Below the pieces are notes generated by a model. It had not been told where the DNA came from. It saw only the letters and a program-made list of their open reading frames with translations, and ran no database searches. A stretch of 42,874 bases of DNA from a virus. Of the stretch, positions 1,926-21,456 are shown piece by piece (positions within the stretch are counted from its first letter, which is position 1; every line of letters begins with the position of its first letter). Location of the stretch: positions 1 through 42,874 of IMG/VR virus record IMGVR_UViG_3300042691_036017; one strand, given 5' to 3'. Position numbers and translations under genes: made by a program.

Positions 1926-1930
1926 CAAAA

Positions 1931-2020
1931 TGTTGATTAGTAGTTTAGTGGTTGAACTAAAAAGAAAATCTGACGCTCAGTAGCAATAAATACCACCAGT
2001 CAGCTTCGTTCTAATTAACA
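1931..2020 (+). ncRNA. tRNA-sized structured element, not a canonical tRNA
   Basis: Ten-base terminal stem TGTTGATTAG (1931-1940) with CTAATTAACA (2011-2020), one G-U pair. Inside are a 5-bp hairpin TAGTT/AACTA, a CTGAC/GTCAG stem and a GTGGT/ACCAC complementarity that would make a pseudoknot with the first hairpin loop. A D-arm-like part is present but no TTCRANY T-loop and no convincing anticodon arm, so it is either a decayed tRNA or a different small RNA co-transcribed with the tRNAs. Confidence 0.4.
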
Positions 2021-2033
2021 TTTTATTTTTATT

Positions 2034-2048
2034 GTTCTTTGACATATT
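2034..2048 (+). promoter_or_regulatory. boxA-like element
   Basis: GTTCTTTGACATATT resembles the boxA antitermination element of Bacteroidetes rRNA leaders. Similar copies lie near other stable RNA genes in this window (3348, 18013, 41735). The last bases overlap an ATATTT promoter-like string that could serve the next gene. Confidence 0.4.
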
Positions 2049-2066: not shown

Positions 2067-2270
2067 ATGCAAAAAATATCTTTTATTAAATTTAATTTTA
2101 AAAATGGATTAATTCATTTATTGACATTATTTTTTGGTAGTTTAATATTATTACCAATAACAGGTAATGAGATTTTTGAATTTAAAATTTGGTTCATTAT
2201 TTTATTGTTTCTTAGTATCTTTATGACGTACTTCAATTATCGTGTTTGGAAAAAATTAAAAATTAAATAA
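2067..2270 (+). CDS. Small membrane protein
   Basis: 67 residues with two strongly hydrophobic segments at about 15-33 and 41-57 and a basic C-terminus (RVWKKLKIK), so a two-span inner-membrane protein with cytosolic ends is likely. No family was recognised. The end overlaps the convergent endonuclease gene by eight bases. Confidence 0.55.
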   Translation: MQKISFIKFNFKNGLIHLLTLFFGSLILLPITGNEIFEFKIWFIILLFLSIFMTYFNYRVWKKLKIK

Positions 2271-2934
2271 TAATTCTTTGATTTATTATGTTTGTGATAA
2301 TATCAAGATATTTTTGAGAGGTAATCTCTTTAAAATATTTTTGTGCTGATGTATCAATAACACAAAAATCAATTTTTGCGTCATGACATGCTTTTGACTT
2401 TGATTTATCATTTTCTTGAATTTGATTTAATTTTTTAATGCCATAAATTGGTTCATAGTGAAAAATTCCATTAAGTTCAAATGCAATATTTAATGATGGA
2501 ATATAAATATCTAATTCTGAGTTAATAGCTAATTTATCATTAAATTTGATATCTAGGTTTGGGTATAAAAATTCTAACTGCGATTGAATCCAAATTTCAA
2601 GTTTTGATTTTCTGTTGCCGTGTTTTTTATTTTTATTGTTATATGTTGCGGCACAAGATTTCGAACAAAAATGATTTATAGATCTAGAAATTTGATTATT
2701 TGCTTTGATAAATTTTTTATCACAATTAGTACATGTAACCTCTTTTCTTTTTTTTGCTGACAAACCATTACATTGTATTGAACAAAAACGTAATTGATTT
2801 TTTTGTTTTTCAATATTATATTTAATATGTCTTTTTTCAATATAGAAAAAATTATCACAATATTCACATATTAATCTTAACTTATCAAAATGTTTTGCAT
2901 TATAATAATCAAATTCTGAATACGCTTTTTTCAT
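2263..2934 (-). CDS. Free-standing endonuclease, zinc fingers plus Vsr/EDxHD-like nuclease
   Basis: 223 residues. The first half has three cysteine pairs that fit treble-clef or ribbon fingers: CEYC near residue 24, CSIQC near 51, CTNC near 68 and CSKSC near 90. The second half carries a very-short-patch-repair-like nuclease core: SELDIYIPSLNIAFELNG around residues 140-158, with catalytic acidic residues in D-I-Y and F-E-L-N-G, followed by HYEPIYG and a QENDKSKSKAC helix. This is the layout of phage-borne homing endonucleases of the EDxHD type, which cut at conserved genes and promote their own spread. It lies between two tRNA groups, on the opposite strand, which suggests insertion as a mobile gene. 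Confidence 0.75.
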   Translation of the reverse strand: MKKAYSEFDYYNAKHFDKLRLICEYCDNFFYIEKRHIKYNIEKQKNQLRFCSIQCNGLSAKKRKEVTCTNCDKKFIKANNQISRSINHFCSKSCAATYNNKNKKHGNRKSKLEIWIQSQLEFLYPNLDIKFNDKLAINSELDIYIPSLNIAFELNGIFHYEPIYGIKKLNQIQENDKSKSKACHDAKIDFCVIDTSAQKYFKEITSQKYLDIITNIINQRIII

Positions 2935-2951
2935 TTATACATATATTTATA

Positions 2952-2960
2952 TATAAATAT
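2952..2960 (-). promoter_or_regulatory. ATATTTATA promoter-like motif
   Basis: ATATTTATA on the minus strand, 18 bases upstream of the endonuclease start. The same motif precedes many structural and tagged genes in the window, so it is inferred to be a phage (late) promoter element. Confidence 0.45.
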
Positions 2961-3000
2961 ATTAAATTTAATTTTCGAATCTGAAGTACTTTGAAATTAT

Positions 3001-3085
3001 GGAGGATCCCACTGGCGCGGTACGTAGTCTTGAAAACTATGAGGTCGGTAATACCGATGTGAAGGTTCGAGTCCATCATCCTCCG
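3001..3085 (+). tRNA. tRNA-Ser(UGA)
   Basis: Acceptor GGAGGAT/ATCCTCC with discriminator G, anticodon stem GTAGT/ACTAT with loop CTTGAAA, and a long variable arm with stem GGTCGGT/ACCGAT-type pairing, as expected for class II serine tRNA. The T-stem GAAGG/CCATC has one mismatch around a normal TTCGAGT loop. Confidence 0.88.
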
Positions 3086-3095
3086 CTAGATAAAA

Positions 3096-3127
3096 TTTGG
3101 AAGTTTGAAATTTTAGTTGTATCTTTG
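3096..3127 (+). promoter_or_regulatory. Host-type promoter for the ncRNA/tRNA-Thr/tRNA-Gly transcript
   Basis: TTTGG at 3096-3100 and TATCTTTG at 3120-3127 with 20 bases after TTG. The upstream part TTTGGAAGTTTGAAA is identical to that of the promoter at 1724. Predicted start is near 3134. Confidence 0.75.
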
Positions 3128-3133
3128 TAGAGC

Positions 3134-3262
3134 GTGTGAAGCATGTGAGCTAAGTTATCGAGGTGCTTGGTACGATTCGCGGTCGTGTTGCGCTGGAAAC
3201 CATCAAAGGTTAAAAGACGTGAAACCAAGTTAAATGGTAAAATCTGACACATTCAGCCTTAA
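3134..3262 (+). ncRNA. Structured RNA upstream of tRNA-Thr
   Basis: About 130 nt between promoter and tRNA-Thr without a plausible ORF. It can form a long-range stem CTTGGT (3166-3171)/ACCAAG (3224-3229), a tRNA-anticodon-like hairpin TACGA-TTCGCGG-TCGTG (3171-3187) and alternative ACCAT/ATGGT pairing. There is no T-arm consensus. It may be the 5' domain of a larger RNA that continues after tRNA-Thr. Confidence 0.4.
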
Positions 3263-3268
3263 ATTTAC

Positions 3269-3344
3269 GCCACTGTAGCTCAATTGGCAGAGCACTAGTT
3301 TTGTAAACTAGCGGTTAGCGGTTCGACTCCGCTCAGTGGCTCCA
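3269..3344 (+). tRNA. tRNA-Thr(UGU), CCA encoded
   Basis: Acceptor GCCACTG/CAGTGGC, D-stem GCTC/GAGC, anticodon stem CTAGT/ACTAG with loop TTTGTAA, normal T-arm with TTCGACT. Discriminator T is followed by an encoded CCA (3342-3344). Confidence 0.93.
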
Positions 3345-3347
3345 AGA

Positions 3348-3358
3348 GTTCTTTGAAA
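3348..3358 (+). promoter_or_regulatory. boxA-like element
   Basis: GTTCTTTGAAA just after tRNA-Thr and before the large structured RNA; it matches the GTTCTTTGA core seen in the tmRNA leader and at 2034. Confidence 0.35.
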
Positions 3359-3836
3359 AAGTTTGAGAAAAAGCGGAAGTACGAAAGTACGGGAAGATTG
3401 TGATAAAAAGAACAAGGAAATAGTCCCTCCCATTGCAGTCACAAGCATAATTGGGTAGAGTGGAAAGGTGAGTCCACGAACCGCTTTTTCTCATTTTACA
3501 TGAAAATATAAAATTAGTGAGCAAAGAGAAAGTGACTTCACCAGTCAGCGTAGTATACAACGGAAGCACGGGCAAGAAAGTAGCATGGTAGCTACCTGAA
3601 ATAAAAATCGATTGCTGGGACAAAACTGAAAACGTTTAATTGGATACCCTTAAAATGAAGATATACCTCACTAACTTTATATTAAAAATTTGTGGTCAGT
3701 ACGGATTGACGTACCTAGTAAGCTGGTAAATTACATTACGAAGAAACGCTGAAGCGACTAAGAAATGTACTAATATGTAATTATTAGTGGGTTGTTGTTA
3801 AGTCTTAGTATGTTAGTTTTTAACACCACAAAAAAA
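3359..3836 (+). ncRNA. Large structured non-coding RNA between tRNA-Thr and tRNA-Gly
   Basis: About 480 nt with no credible coding frame but several strong helices. A 13-bp perfect stem pairs 3364-3376 (TGAGAAAAAGCGG) with 3481-3493. Inside it are GTAC-GAAA-GTAC, a GNRA-capped hairpin at 3379-3390, TTGTGA (3398)/TCACAA (3439), and GTGGA (3460)/TCCAC (3473). The 3' half has ACTAATA (3769)/TATTAGT (3782) and GTGG..TGTTAA (3787-3801)/TTAACA.CCAC (3820-3829). Size, phage origin and position inside a tRNA group resemble the ornate GOLLD and ROOL RNA classes, but I could not match a consensus, so the class is open. Confidence 0.5.
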
Positions 3837-3910
3837 GCGAGTGTAGCTTAGTTGATTAAAGCGCCGTCCTTCCAAGTCGGAGATCGTCAGTTTGAGTCTG
3901 ACCACTCGCT
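3837..3910 (+). tRNA. tRNA-Gly(UCC)
   Basis: Acceptor GCGAGTG/CACTCGC, D-stem GCTT/AAGC, T-arm GTCAG-TTTGAGT-CTGAC. The anticodon loop CTTCCAA gives UCC; the anticodon stem CCGTC/GTCGG has one U-U mismatch. Confidence 0.85.
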
Positions 3911-3969
3911 CACTAATCCCCTCTAACCTCTGAAGAAATTCAAGTTATTGGGTAAAACAGTTTCTTTTC

Positions 3970-3978
3970 ATATTTATA
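3970..3978 (+). promoter_or_regulatory. ATATTTATA promoter-like motif
   Basis: ATATTTATA 18 bases upstream of the start of the 1451-residue exported protein; same motif and spacing class as in front of other late-type genes. Confidence 0.5.
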
Positions 3979-3996
3979 GAATAAACATCTATCAAT

Positions 3997-6900
3997 ATGA
4001 TTAAGAAAATATTTTTATCATTAGCAATACTTGCTTCAATTTTAAGCAATGCTGCAACATATTATGTTTCACCAAACGGAAATGATTCAAATAATGGGAC
4101 TTCAATAACCACTCCGTGGAAAACAATAAGTAAAGTTAACACCAGACAATTAGTAGCTGGGGACCAAATTTTATTTGAACGAAATGGAACATACAGAGGT
4201 AATTTAACAATTAACTATTCGGGTACCGATGTCAACCCAATTCTAATTTCCACTTATGGTAGTGGAAATAACCCCATATTACTTGGTTCACAATTAATTT
4301 CAAACTGGATATTACATCAAGGAAATATTTGGAAGACTCAAGTAAATGCAACACAAGTTGTTCATTTGTTCTTCAATGACAGTTTAATGCCAATTGCAAG
4401 ATATCCAAATAATGGTTGGTTAAGAAATATACAAGGAACAAATTCTCAAATAACAGATAATCAATTAACACAACCAGCGAATTATTGGAATGGTAGTACA
4501 ATGGTTATTCGTAGTTCTTCTTGGAGTTATGATACAAGTAGAGTTTTATCATATAGTCCGGGGGTTATTAACTTTAGACCTATTAGTTATAACTTAGGAA
4601 ACAGTACGTGGGGTTATTTTATCCGAAATAAATTTCAAGAATTAGATGCCCCCGGTGAATGGTTTTTTGATAAGACCATCAACACATTATATTTTTACTC
4701 CCCAACAGGAAACCCAAATTTAAACGCGATTGAAATAATAACAGCCAATCAATCAACAAATGGTGTAGGAATAAGGGTTACTTGGCAAAGAAATAATATT
4801 ATTATTGAAAATCTTACAATTAATAAGTATGGTTATGCTGGTGTTAGCACAAGCGGTACATCTAATATAACTGTAAGAAATTGTAATATTAGTCAATGTG
4901 ATCATGGTATGTGGTTATATGGTAATAATCAAATTATTAGAAATAATTTCATCACAAAATGTCCCCAAATGGGTTTAAATGCTGTTTCTGGTGGAAGCCC
5001 AATTAGTTATGGAAACAACAATACATTTGAAGATAATACCATCCAAAATTGTGCATTATATCCCGGTCTTGGAAAAAGCTCATGGGGTTATTTCGGAATG
5101 ACCGTCACTGGTTCCAATAATATAATAAGAAAAAATAATATTACAAATATTGGTTATATTGCATTATCTTTCGAATCAAACCCATTAATTGAAAATAACT
5201 TTATAAGTAATGCATGTTCAATTTTAAATGATGGTTCTGGTATTGCATTTGATAGAACAAATGGTGCTGTTATTAGAAATAACATTGTTTTAAATACAAT
5301 TGGTAATATTGAAAGTTGTGCAACAAATACAACCAACTGTGACCCAAAAGGTAAAGGAATATATTTTGGAAATGTTAGCAATAAAAATAATTTAGTTGAT
5401 GGTAATACTGTCGCATATTGTAACGGTGCTGGTATTTGGTTTGATCATACTATGCTATCAGAAGGTAATCAAATTATTAATAATACCTTATTTGGGAACA
5501 ATTTATATCAATTAGGTATTTCAGATTTTTCAAACTATAATAGTCCCGGAGCAATTGCTCCTTATGCAGTTCCGGTGTATAGTAACCAACTTGTTAGAAA
5601 TAATATTTTTTATTCAAATAACCAACAACAGAAAACCATGTACCACATAAATAAGTGGTATTCTGGTGTTGATTTTGCAAATTTTAATGAAAATAAATAT
5701 ATTAACCCTTGGGATACTGTTAGTATTCAAGTTTTTGATATAGCAAATAATGGTAATTCTTTAAATTATTCATTAAATCAATGGAAAAATGTTAGAGGTG
5801 ATGACTCTTTATCTACAAACCAACCTTATCTCCCTCAATCCGAATCATCTGATCATATTTTGGTTTATAATAATCAAATAACAGAACAATCAATTAGTTT
5901 ACCAAGTGGTACTTGGTCAGATTTAAACGGTAATTTATATAATTCTTCAATTAATATACCAGCATTTGAATCAAAACCTTTATTTAATTCATTATTACTT
6001 CCTCCACCACCCTCAACCCCAAGCACTATTGTTTCTTTATTGGTTCAAGCTAGTGTTAATTCAACAACACCATCAATTACACTTTCATGGATTAGTTATT
6101 CCACTGCAACAGGTTATTCTGTGTTCAGAAAATTAAAAAATGCAACATCTTGGGGAAGCGCAATAGCTACCTTAGGGGGTAGTGCAACTCAGTATGTTGA
6201 TAATAACGTTTCTTTAAATACATATTATGAATATCGTGTTGTTAGAAACGCTTCTGTTGGTACTGCATATGGTTATGTTGCAACAGGTATTAATCTCAAT
6301 ACAATTGATTATAGAGGTAAGCTAATATTAGTTGTTGATAATACATTTACAAGTAGTTTATCTTCACAACTAACTCAATTACAAAATGATCTAAAATTAG
6401 ATGGTTGGAATGTTATTAGAGTTGATGTTTCAAGAACAACAACACCAGCGTCAGTAAAATCTCAAATACAGACAATTTACAATACTGATCCAACTAATGT
6501 AAAATCAGTTTTATTATTTGGGCATGTTCCGGTTTATCGTTCTGGTAATATTGCACCAGATGGACATAGTTTAATTCCTTGGGCATGTGATTCCTATTAT
6601 GGTGATATGAATGGTTCTTGGACAACACCTCCCACAGCATTACCTTCAGATTTGGAGTTACAAGTGGGGAGGATTGATTTATTTAATTTACCCGCGTTTG
6701 GACAAACAGAACAACAATTATTGTCAAATTATTTAACTAAATTACATCAATTTAAAACAAAACAATTTACTCCTCAAAACAGAATGTTAATTCAGGATAA
6801 TTTAACTTGGGTTAATAATCCACTAGCTGAAACTTCTTATAGAACTGGTGGTCCTTTAGTTGGTGAAGCAAATATTACAACAATACCAGCAAATAATCAA

Positions 6901-14632: not shown

Positions 14633-15379
14633 ATGATAAAAAAATACATTATACTATTTTTAAGTTTTTTTATACATTTAAAAATAAATGCACAAAATAG
14701 TAATTGTTCATTAGCAATACCATTTATTGATAATGATTGTATATTATTTTCGCCCCCAACAGCAGGACCGATAACAAGATGTTATTCTTTCTATTTAGTG
14801 GATGATTCTGTTGATTTTAATTTTGTTTCATTTGCACCACTAAATACTTGTACTGATGCTATTGCTTGGTATACGTTATATGATTCAAATTGTGATACAA
14901 TTACCACAAATTTAGACGGTAATTTTCAAAATCTAATAGAAAATTCTAATTATACTATTTGCTATACAATACAATGTCCAACAAATGGTGTAATTAATTT
15001 ATTATGTACATATGAATTAATTGTTTTACCAATAGAGTTATTATATTTTAATGCTCGTATTGAATATAACAACATAAGATTAATATGGGAAACAACTACC
15101 GAAACAAATAATTGTTGTTTTACACTATACCACTCAACTGATTTTGTAAATTGGTTGAGTATCGGTAGAGTAGACGGTGCTGGTAATTCAATAACACCGC
15201 TATCATATAGTTTTATTTTTAATAATCCAAGTAATGGTGTAAATTATTTTAAATTAATTCAAGAAGATTTTGATGGTAAACGCACTGAGTTTAATATTTT
15301 AGCGATTCCTTTTATAAAAAAAACCAAACCAAACGATATATTTCAAAAATACAATATATTAGGTCAACAAATTAAATAA
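14633..15379 (+). CDS. Exported Bacteroidetes-type protein
   Basis: 248 residues. Signal peptide MIKKYIILFLSFFIHLKINA, then a cysteine-rich beta domain (residues 25-130), then a segment starting LPIELLYFNARIEYNNIRL at about 135 and continuing with a TDFVNWLSIGRVDGAGNS stretch. The latter is the Fn3-like module that in Bacteroidetes immediately precedes T9SS sorting domains. The end, FQKYNILGQQIK, looks like the beginning of a type A sorting domain cut short. It is probably host-derived and exported; the target compartment and role are unknown. The next gene is also exported and lies 15 bases downstream. Confidence 0.7.
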   Translation: MIKKYIILFLSFFIHLKINAQNSNCSLAIPFIDNDCILFSPPTAGPITRCYSFYLVDDSVDFNFVSFAPLNTCTDAIAWYTLYDSNCDTITTNLDGNFQNLIENSNYTICYTIQCPTNGVINLLCTYELIVLPIELLYFNARIEYNNIRLIWETTTETNNCCFTLYHSTDFVNWLSIGRVDGAGNSITPLSYSFIFNNPSNGVNYFKLIQEDFDGKRTEFNILAIPFIKKTKPNDIFQKYNILGQQIK

Positions 15380-17632: not shown

Positions 17633-18007
17633 TGGTGGAGATGGAGGGTTTCGAAACCCTCGTCTTCCGCTGTCAACCTAAAGAGACTACACGCTTAGAA
17701 CAACATTAGTTCTTAATGTTTCGAAATATCAAGTTTCACTATATACCAACTTGCAAAGGTTTTCTTTGGTTAATTTTAAGTATCAACCACACTTTTTTTG
17801 GAATTTCTGTTGCTAGGTAAATTCCCAAATTACCCCTTGTAGGTGTTAGCCTTAGGCTACAGCTACTTCTTCAGTCTTGATGAGACCCAAAACTGACATC
17901 TTGTCTAAAACGTTGCCGTTTACTTGTTTGAACCATTTTAACAAGGTTGATTCACCCTTGACGTGCCTATTTAACCTAATCATCGGAATCAAATCCAACT
18001 CATCCCC
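17633..18007 (-). ncRNA. ssrA: Transfer-messenger RNA (tmRNA)
   Basis: 375 nt including an encoded CCA. The tRNA-like ends pair as GGGGATG/CATCTCC with the third base pair G-U, the alanine identity element, and discriminator A. The 5' part has the conserved TTGGATTTGATT, and the T-arm is GAGGG-TTTCGAAA-CCCTC. The message part begins after GTAAAC and probably encodes GNVLDKMSVLGLIKTEEVAV followed by A, stop TAA (17917-17852). The tag is longer than usual and ends VAVA instead of ALAA. It rescues stalled ribosomes and marks products for proteolysis. It has its own promoter and terminator and lies next to a peptidase and a Clp-type unfoldase. Confidence 0.88.
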
Positions 18008-18956: not shown

Positions 18957-18983
18957 AAAAGGGGGAAACTTATTTCCCCTTTT
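18957..18983. terminator. Bidirectional terminator between peptidase and Clp genes
   Basis: Stem AAAAGGGG-AAA/TTT-CCCCTTTT with a short loop, overlapping the last codons of the Clp gene. A-run and T-run flanks allow termination in both directions. Confidence 0.8.
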
Positions 18984-21156
18984 CAATTTTAACCTTATCT
19001 TTTACGAATTTTAATTTATACTTTTTCATCTCAATCATCTCACCCTTTAGAATTTCCTCGGATATAAAATCTTCCACATATTCTTGTATTGCTCGTTTTA
19101 ATGGTCTTGCACCAAACTGAGGGTCAAATCCAACTTTAGCGATGTGCTCGACCAATGAATTATCATATTTGATAAAATATTTTAATTTATTTAATCTTTC
19201 TACCAATCTATCCAATTCAATCTTAACAATTTCCTTGACATCATCTTCTTTTAATGTATTAAAGACAACAACCTCATCAATTCTATTTAAGAATTCTGGA
19301 GCAAAGAAATTCTTCATTTCTTTTTGAATTATATCTCGTTTAGCTTCTTCATTAGCAAATGAGTTTTTACCGAAGCCAATTCCAGAACCAAAATCTTGTA
19401 TTTTTTTAACACCAAGATTTGATGTTAAAATAATTAATGAGTTTCTAAAGTTTATTTTTCTACCTAAACTATCAGTTATAAAACCTTCGTCTAAAACCCT
19501 CAATAAGATTGAGAATATTTCTTTATTTGCTTTTTCAACCTCATCAAATAAAATAACCGAATATGGTTTGTTTTTTACTTGTTCGGTTAATTGACCACCT
19601 TTATCATAACCAACATAACCGGGGGGAGCACCAACCAATCTAGATACGCTATGTTTTTCTTGATATTCTGACATATCAATTCTAATTAAGTTATCTTCGC
19701 TACCAAAGATTTCTTTCGCCATCTGTTTAGCTAAATGAGTTTTACCAACACCACTATTACCAAGCAATATGAACGCACCAATCGGTCTATTTGGGTCTCT
19801 AATACCTAATCTATTTCTGCGAATAGCTTTCGCCATTTTTGTAATTGCTTCTTGTTGACCAACAACTTTTTCACCCACATTCTTTTCCAAATTCAATAAA
19901 TTCTTTGTATCGTCAGTGTTTAATTTGTTAATTGGTATTTTTGTCATTGTTGATACAACATCATAAACCAATTCAGTTGTAACTTCTTTTCTTTTGGTTA
20001 AAAGAGTTTCTTCAAATTTCTTTTTTTCTTCATTAAGTTTATCGACAATCTTTTTTTCTTTATCCCTTAATTCCGCAGCTTTCTCATAATCCTGTTGTTT
20101 TACAACGATTAATTTTTCTTCCTTAATTTTATGTGCTTCATCTTTAAGGTGGTTAATAATTTCCGGTAATTCAATATCTACTTGACTTCTAGCACCAACT
20201 TCATCAATAATGTCAAATGCTTTATCGGGAAATTCTCTGTCAGTTATATATCTATCAGCAAGGTTTACACATAAATCTAAAACCTCATCATTGTAACTTA
20301 CTCGATGATAAAATTCATATTTATCTTTAACGTTTTTTAAAATTTCTAATGTTTCTTCTTTTGAGGGTGAATCAACAACAACTTTTTGAAATCTTCGTTC
20401 TAATGCACCATCTTTTTCAAAATTTTCACGATATTCATCTAGCGTTGTTGCACCGATACATTGAATTTCTCCTCTTGCTAATGCTGGTTTAAAGATGTTT
20501 GACGCATCTAATGACCCAGATGAATTACCAGCACCAACTAATGTATGAATTTCATCAATAAAGACAATTATATCGGGGTTATTTTGTAATTCTTCAAGAA
20601 TAACTTTAAGACGTTCTTCAAATTGACCTCTATATTTTGTCCCAGCAACAATAGATGTTAAATCAAGTAGTACAATTCTTTTATTTTCAAGGTTTCTTGG
20701 ACATTCACCTAGATAAATTTTCATAGCAAGACCTTCAACTATGGCAGTTTTACCACAATTATGTGAAGATATGCCATTTGTTAAATATTTTCTTTCCTCA
20801 TCTAATACTTCTAAATCAAAAGTATCGTGAACCCCAATATATTCTTTTTCAATAACATCATGTAATTGATTATCGTCATACCAAACTAAATCTCCAATAT
20901 TAATATTCTTTAATGATAACCAATATGTGTTATTCTGTTCTTCAACTAAATTATTTGCACAATCAAAAGATGTCTCAACTAAATGGGATTCTGAACCAGA
21001 AAGCTCAACGTTATTTGATAATGTTATTTTATAACACTCTTTTTTTGTTTTTTTAAACAAATTACCAATTAATTTGTAACCAGATGGGGTCTTTACTTTA
21101 TAAGTTCCCCCGTTTTTTTCAACATCGTTAAAAAAATCTTCAATTTTTATTTTCAT
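18970..21156 (-). CDS. C-terminal intein half fused to ClpC-like unfoldase body
   Basis: 728 residues. Residues 1-133 are the C-terminal intein fragment (see 20758-21156), ending NGISSHN; Cys134 is the +1 extein residue and starts CGKTAIVEGLA, the rest of the D1 Walker A motif. The body follows ClpC: Walker B VFIDEIHTL, a middle domain with a UVR-like QQDYEKAAELRDKE, D2 Walker A GNSGVGKTHL, Walker B VILFDEVEKA, and an IGF loop (GSGIGFG) of the type that docks ClpP. It lacks the start of D1, which is encoded by the preceding gene. ATP-driven unfolding would require trans-splicing. ATG follows the upstream stop by six bases in the same frame. Stop overlaps a terminator. Confidence 0.88.
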   Translation of the reverse strand: MKIKIEDFFNDVEKNGGTYKVKTPSGYKLIGNLFKKTKKECYKITLSNNVELSGSESHLVETSFDCANNLVEEQNNTYWLSLKNINIGDLVWYDDNQLHDVIEKEYIGVHDTFDLEVLDEERKYLTNGISSHNCGKTAIVEGLAMKIYLGECPRNLENKRIVLLDLTSIVAGTKYRGQFEERLKVILEELQNNPDIIVFIDEIHTLVGAGNSSGSLDASNIFKPALARGEIQCIGATTLDEYRENFEKDGALERRFQKVVVDSPSKEETLEILKNVKDKYEFYHRVSYNDEVLDLCVNLADRYITDREFPDKAFDIIDEVGARSQVDIELPEIINHLKDEAHKIKEEKLIVVKQQDYEKAAELRDKEKKIVDKLNEEKKKFEETLLTKRKEVTTELVYDVVSTMTKIPINKLNTDDTKNLLNLEKNVGEKVVGQQEAITKMAKAIRRNRLGIRDPNRPIGAFILLGNSGVGKTHLAKQMAKEIFGSEDNLIRIDMSEYQEKHSVSRLVGAPPGYVGYDKGGQLTEQVKNKPYSVILFDEVEKANKEIFSILLRVLDEGFITDSLGRKINFRNSLIILTSNLGVKKIQDFGSGIGFGKNSFANEEAKRDIIQKEMKNFFAPEFLNRIDEVVVFNTLKEDDVKEIVKIELDRLVERLNKLKYFIKYDNSLVEHIAKVGFDPQFGARPLKRAIQEYVEDFISEEILKGEMIEMKKYKLKFVKDKVKIEKGK
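20758..21156 (-). other. Split mini-intein, C-terminal fragment
   Basis: 133 residues. It begins MKIKIEDFFNDVEKNGG, contains a block-B-like NNVELSGSESHLVET with the conserved His, and ends with blocks F and G (GVHDTFDLEV, YLTNGISSHN followed by Cys). The penultimate His, final Asn and Cys+1 needed for splicing are all present. No homing endonuclease domain is inserted. Confidence 0.85.
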
Positions 21157-21162
21157 TTTAAA

Positions 21163-21456
21163 TTATAATATTTCAATATTATGCGTATTAACATCAGAAA
21201 TTTTTTCAACCTCTATGTACGTATCACCAAGTACACACCCCGGTTCACCAATTATAATTGGATTATTTTTCTTTCTTCTAGATAAGATTTGAGCAATTCT
21301 GTTAATTTCATTTTCTCTACCAATAACAGGGTCAAGTTTTCCTTGTTCTGCCATTTTTATCAAATCTTTACTAAAATTATCTAAAACCGGTGTTGAACCA
21401 TCTTTTGTTTTTTCGGAACCAGATTTTTGGTTGCTATTTTCTTCAAATTCTATCAT
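21163..21456 (-). CDS. ClpC-like D1 N-terminal segment fused to N-terminal intein half
   Basis: 97 residues. Residues 1-73 are the start of a ClpC/ClpB D1 module: [30 protein letters not shown], then [15 protein letters not shown], the first part of Walker A. Residues 74-97 are an intein N-terminus, [10 protein letters not shown]..., with the nucleophilic Cys and GDT block A. The frame stops at TAA. The usual Clp N-terminal substrate-binding domain (about 150 residues) is absent and the upstream bases offer no alternative start for it. Joined to the next gene the extein reads GEPG-CGKT. Confidence 0.88.
21166..21237 (-). other. Split mini-intein, N-terminal fragment
   Basis: 24 residues from [10 protein letters not shown] to the stop codon. 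The length is close to the roughly 25-residue N-fragments of atypical split inteins such as AceL-TerL. The six bases after the stop are in frame with the C-terminal fragment, so the split can be explained by one nonsense codon plus reinitiation. Confidence 0.82.

Follow-up and report, generated by a model that had tools for sequence, protein, structure and literature searches.

A candidate modular structured RNA led by a boxA-like sequence in the tRNA region of a T4-like phage

Between the tRNA-Thr and tRNA-Gly genes of a T4-like phage lies a segment of ca. 490 nt (positions 3345 to 3836) that we are somewhat inclined to read as an orphan modular structured RNA, produced through the host's rRNA and tRNA transcription and processing route and having its own function rather than being a mere linker. 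The window analyzed here is the whole record of the virus IMGVR_UViG_3300042691_036017 (42,874 bases); the same virus is also represented, with an offset of 414 bases, by a 256-kb contig (IMGVR_UViG_3300027816_000052) that encodes a T4-like Gp23 major capsid protein, of which there are hundreds of relatives in IMG/VR. Given the TTTG/TAnnTTTG promoters and the host-type boxA, the host is probably a member of the Bacteroidota. We counted in favor of our reading the helices beyond those of shuffled sequences, the folding z score of the first domain, the enrichment of boxA, the boxA-led GOLLD RNAs, a structured module found in related phages (beta) and a second helix-closed spacer, and against it the lack of a homologue, the modest overall folding energy, the weakness of domains 2 and 3 and the finding of significant long helices at only 2 of 16 boxA sites.

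The initial annotation had described some 600 nt without coding potential behind a host-type promoter, and both statements held. The Bacteroidota consensus TTTG-N20-TATCTTTG is present at 3096 to 3127 on the plus strand (one of nine regex matches in the window), and no convincing open reading frame (ORF) was found in 3131 to 3836. The longest one (96 amino acids, minus strand, 3333 to 3623) runs antisense into tRNA-Thr and had no PHROG or Pfam match, and the other ORFs tested had no protein-family match either. The tRNA-Thr (anticodon TGT) reported inside this stretch was recovered at 3269 to 3344 on the plus strand by both ARAGORN and Rfam (70.8 bits), and no other tRNA, hidden or split, was detected in 3131 to 3836. 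The 138-nt leader of the transcript (3131 to 3268, plus strand) has no homologue and folds no better than shuffled sequences (z of ca. +0.3). Thus, the claim of a large structured noncoding RNA in a phage tRNA region stands for 3345 to 3836 only, and since the part 5' of tRNA-Thr carries no structural signal, the arrangement is better described as a tRNA, then a boxA and then the structured RNA than as a tRNA embedded in an RNA.

The structured segment fills the space between the two tRNA genes. Three consecutive domains, all on the plus strand, span it from 3364, 6 nt past the boxA, to 3832, 4 nt short of tRNA-Gly (anticodon TCC; 3837 to 3911, plus strand; ARAGORN and Rfam). Domain 1 (3364 to 3493) is closed by the 13-bp perfect long-range helix noted earlier (3364 to 3376 with 3481 to 3493), a length reached in none of 300 dinucleotide shuffles, and contains four hairpins, one of them the GNRA-capped hairpin GUAC-GAAA-GUAC, which was confirmed together with the further stems. 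Domain 2 (3505 to 3683) has a 16-bp closing helix with one mismatch (3505 to 3521 with 3667 to 3683), which none of 300 dinucleotide shuffles attained either, while domain 3 (3689 to 3832), the weakest of the three, is closed by 8 bp (3689 to 3696 with 3825 to 3832). When inverted repeats were scanned across the 42.9-kb window (loop of ≥60, span of ≤260), no perfect repeat of ≥13 bp turned up other than the domain 1 helix, and no one-mismatch repeat of ≥15 bp other than the domain 2 helix. Domain 1 also folds better than expected by chance (z of −4.46, with none of 200 shuffles as good), and the values for domain 2 as a whole and for domain 3 were just −1.48 and −1.90. The full-length z score of −3.75 includes the tRNA; for the 3' part alone, the values were −2.1 to −2.4, and control windows elsewhere reached −3.2. 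Because the 3' part lies within the range of the controls, the structural evidence resides in the long-range helices and in domain 1, not in the overall energy, and on these grounds a folded RNA at 3345 to 3836 is supported. Within domain 1 (3397 to 3445), a kissing interaction is possible between the large loop (UUGUGA) and a hairpin loop of 8 nt (AGUCACAA).

Immediately behind tRNA-Thr, the boxA-like sequence GTTCTTTGAA (3348 to 3357, plus strand) contains the 9-mer GTTCTTTGA (3348 to 3356), which has the sequence of an rrn-type boxA. Same-strand flanks of tRNA or tmRNA genes, which make up 4% of the strand positions in 43 nonredundant loci (window included), contained this 9-mer 27 times, and the remaining positions contained it 12 times. 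For 400 shuffled 9-mers, the mean counts were 0.27 and 6.7, respectively, and the maxima were 14 and 37. A longer form, GTTCTTTGACATATTGG, is present in several related phages; of 80 genome hits sampled, mostly from Bacteroidota, at least 40 place it 35 to 305 nt ahead of a 23S rRNA, so that the core of the phage boxA is identical to the sequence preceding the 23S rRNA in this phylum. In Escherichia coli, boxA recruits an antitermination complex, one copy of it precedes the 23S rRNA, and the rRNAs are flanked by long leader-trailer helices (PMC10250234). The same tRNA region of the window holds a second helix-closed spacer directly 3' of tRNA-Met (1927 to 2024, plus strand; 13 bp with one mismatch; z of −3.2 for 1927 to 2033), behind which is another boxA-like sequence, GTTCTTTGAC (2034 to 2043, plus strand). 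The generalization that a long helix follows every boxA had to be rejected, as a significant one was found at 2 of 16 boxA sites; the layout is therefore recurrent, not universal. Farther along the window, the phage tmRNA gene (17633 to 18007, minus strand) is immediately preceded by a boxA and a promoter of its own.

The association of boxA with noncoding RNAs extends to GOLLD, which was detected in 21 of 50 related records (two weak matches in relatives, which fell inside a repetitive ORF, were discarded). A boxA was present at the 5' end of each of the 20 GOLLD loci examined (L165 to L184; 14 distinct), 411 to 519 nt before the Rfam start; among the 14 distinct loci, 13 had an exact copy, and most copies came shortly past a promoter-like TAnnTTTG. 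No earlier report of GOLLD with a boxA was found in a narrow literature search, which is not proof of absence. The presence of boxA 5' of every GOLLD examined and beside other structured RNAs and tRNAs suggests that the host rRNA antitermination and processing route makes these transcripts.

Some spacers in the tRNA arrays of related phages are composed of a promoter, a G-rich hairpin, a boxA and structured modules. One of these, module beta, is an RNA of ca. 140 nt with a long closing helix, often boxA led (examples are locus L149, 10147 to 10285; locus L105, 15546 to 15683; and loci L327 to L403), that was modeled from four sequences and then found in 78 loci, corresponding to 56 distinct sequences. 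The covariation score over these 56 was 0.337, compared with 0.142 ± 0.007 in shuffles, in an alignment fitted to the model, which favors it, and with related sequences inflating the shuffle test; with the helices slid, the score was at most 0.078. Compensatory changes affected 18 of the 28 pairs, including 5 of the 8 closing-helix pairs, and 10 of the 28 were already compensated in the first four-sequence alignment, which was independent of the model. Beta has no Rfam match and is an undescribed structured RNA family whose fold is strongly supported by covariation. Of 55 distinct cases, 42 had a tRNA within 200 nt downstream, at a distance of 1 to 8 nt in 34 of the 42, with tRNA-Phe the commonest (28), and a boxA was located upstream in 24 of the 55. 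A second conserved module, alpha (AAATCACGGGTGGCTCCCTTAATAGTTAAGG...GGGGGCGAAAGTGATTT), is present in several related phages (L105, 15432 to 15533; L141, about 14639 to 14720; L164, from 11931 and cut by the end of the locus). The beta model (R2) had no match in the window between 1700 and 4000. We nevertheless take the window RNA to be this virus's own modular RNA, because relatives have beta and alpha in the same layout as well as boxA-led GOLLD. Helix-closed spacers of ca. 200 nt were also seen beside tRNAs at L149 (14668 to 14869) and L113 (2409 to 2612), the former containing the freshwater-1 RNA (RF02979).

According to the mechanism that we propose, NusB and S10 of the host would bind the boxA, and RNA polymerase would then read through the untranslated RNA without Rho termination. 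Every domain would fold during transcription, the closing helix playing the part of a pre-rRNA leader-trailer stem, and an RNase P cut at tRNA-Gly together with 3' processing of tRNA-Thr would release the RNA of ca. 490 nt, which would be stable and have its own function. The main rival, which we regard as rather unlikely, is that the domains are cis elements only, that is, folded spacers that insulate tRNA-Thr from tRNA-Gly and mark the cleavage sites, being degraded afterwards. The exact tiling of the spacer by the domains, with tRNA-Gly 4 nt behind domain 3, would be expected of such elements, as would the position of beta, which mostly ends 1 to 8 nt ahead of a tRNA, and the lack of sequence conservation among viruses. 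However, spacers of just 4 to 10 nt separate many of the tRNA pairs in these arrays, and the conserved single-stranded stretches carried by beta exceed what an insulator needs.

Homologues of the window RNA were sought by blastn against 50,697 phage records, by exact patterns in viral contigs, through the neighboring proteins and in the records of relatives, and with covariance models of domains 1 and 3; none was found outside its own virus. A BLAST match of domain 2 in locus L385 was rejected because the matched stretch extends in antisense into a tRNA and an equally good match was given by 2 of 60 shuffles. To judge from these searches, the RNA appears to be an orphan restricted to one virus. 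The suggestion of a new class is thus plausible, but the RNA is known from a single virus and the relatives repeat its layout, not its sequence. The same results, with the modest overall z score, are what a nonfunctional stretch drifting in a tRNA array would give, its helices being remnants or products of chance. We consider this improbable given that two helices each exceed 300 shuffles and are unique in 42.9 kb, that a boxA is in place and that the domains tile the spacer exactly.

GOLLD and ROOL occur near phage tRNAs, and the window RNA, phage encoded and near tRNA genes, has a GOLLD-type setting; RNA nanocage formation is a further criterion for GOLLD. The initial annotation had raised the possibility of a divergent member of either family, and phages of this group commonly carry a boxA-led GOLLD, while this virus seems to lack a recognizable copy: none was found in its 256-kb contig, for which 21 of 36 first-look candidates were scored. 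This proposal is not supported and, in our view, is very improbable. At an E value of ≤10, Rfam returned only tRNAs and subthreshold chance matches in the region, and between 2940 and 4000, neither the conserved 3' domain of GOLLD (RF02032 covariance model) nor ROOL (RF03087) was matched. A profile built from 14 GOLLDs of related phages did not match the window either, and the RNA has about half the length. A whole-record search for ROOL had no match anywhere, controls included, and hence carries little weight. Least credible of all is an intron or a coding region, since the homing-endonuclease-like ORF nearby (2263 to 2934, minus strand) is offset by the absence of any intron-family match in 2940 to 4000 at an E value of ≤10 and by the intactness of both flanking tRNAs, and the tested ORFs resemble no protein family.

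Other features of these genomes were recorded along the way. The large gaps in L126, L132 and L140 were discarded as candidates, as they have a tmRNA inside; in L126 (3667 to 4251, minus strand) and L140 (9220 to 9805, minus strand), a group I intron match adjoins the tmRNA match with an 8-nt overlap. On the minus strand of the window, three tRNA-like sequences missed by ARAGORN (41154 to 41072, 41059 to 40926 and about 41378, or 41468, to 41245) have acceptor and T arms and odd or enlarged middles. Locus L113 has tRNA-Leu-like genes at 611 to 703, 1260 to 1441, 3818 to 3903 and 4029 to 4192, with common acceptor, D and T arms and differing, sometimes long middles. An intein sits at the Walker A motif of the window's Clp-type ATPase (21163 to 21456 and 18970 to 21156, minus strand). 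It has the look of a naturally split intein whose N part is very short, the second ORF reading MKIKIEDFF...GISSHN/CGKTAIVEGLAM.

Returning to the modular RNA favored here, a broader and quite tentative idea is that this group of T4-like phages of Bacteroidota possesses, in the tRNA operons, a system of boxA-led, helix-closed RNAs that copies the organization of rRNA operons, in which this RNA, beta and alpha would be interchangeable modules, GOLLD would be a member and the products would act in trans during infection. In practical terms, a boxA beside phage tRNAs provides a sequence handle for finding more RNAs, which here led to beta. With GOLLD (RF02032), the window RNA has in common that it is a large phage noncoding RNA near tRNA genes and that it shares the boxA with which GOLLD begins, downstream of a Bacteroidota-type promoter, in related phages, although GOLLD measures ca. 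900 nt rather than ca. 490 nt and neither its model nor its profile matches. ROOL (RF03087) is likewise a large and ornate RNA of phages that often lies close to tRNA islands (PMC12286853), but its model has no match in the window region at an E value of ≤10. Despite having no sequence or structure homology with it, the window RNA resembles beta in layout, both having a long closing helix and, in beta usually, a tRNA within 8 nt of it (in the window, domain 3 ends at 3832 and tRNA-Gly starts at 3837). Finally, while the window RNA is phage encoded and has no rRNA inside, and antitermination is in its case a prediction, its order of tRNA, boxA and a domain closed by a long helix is also that of the bacterial rrn operon leader.
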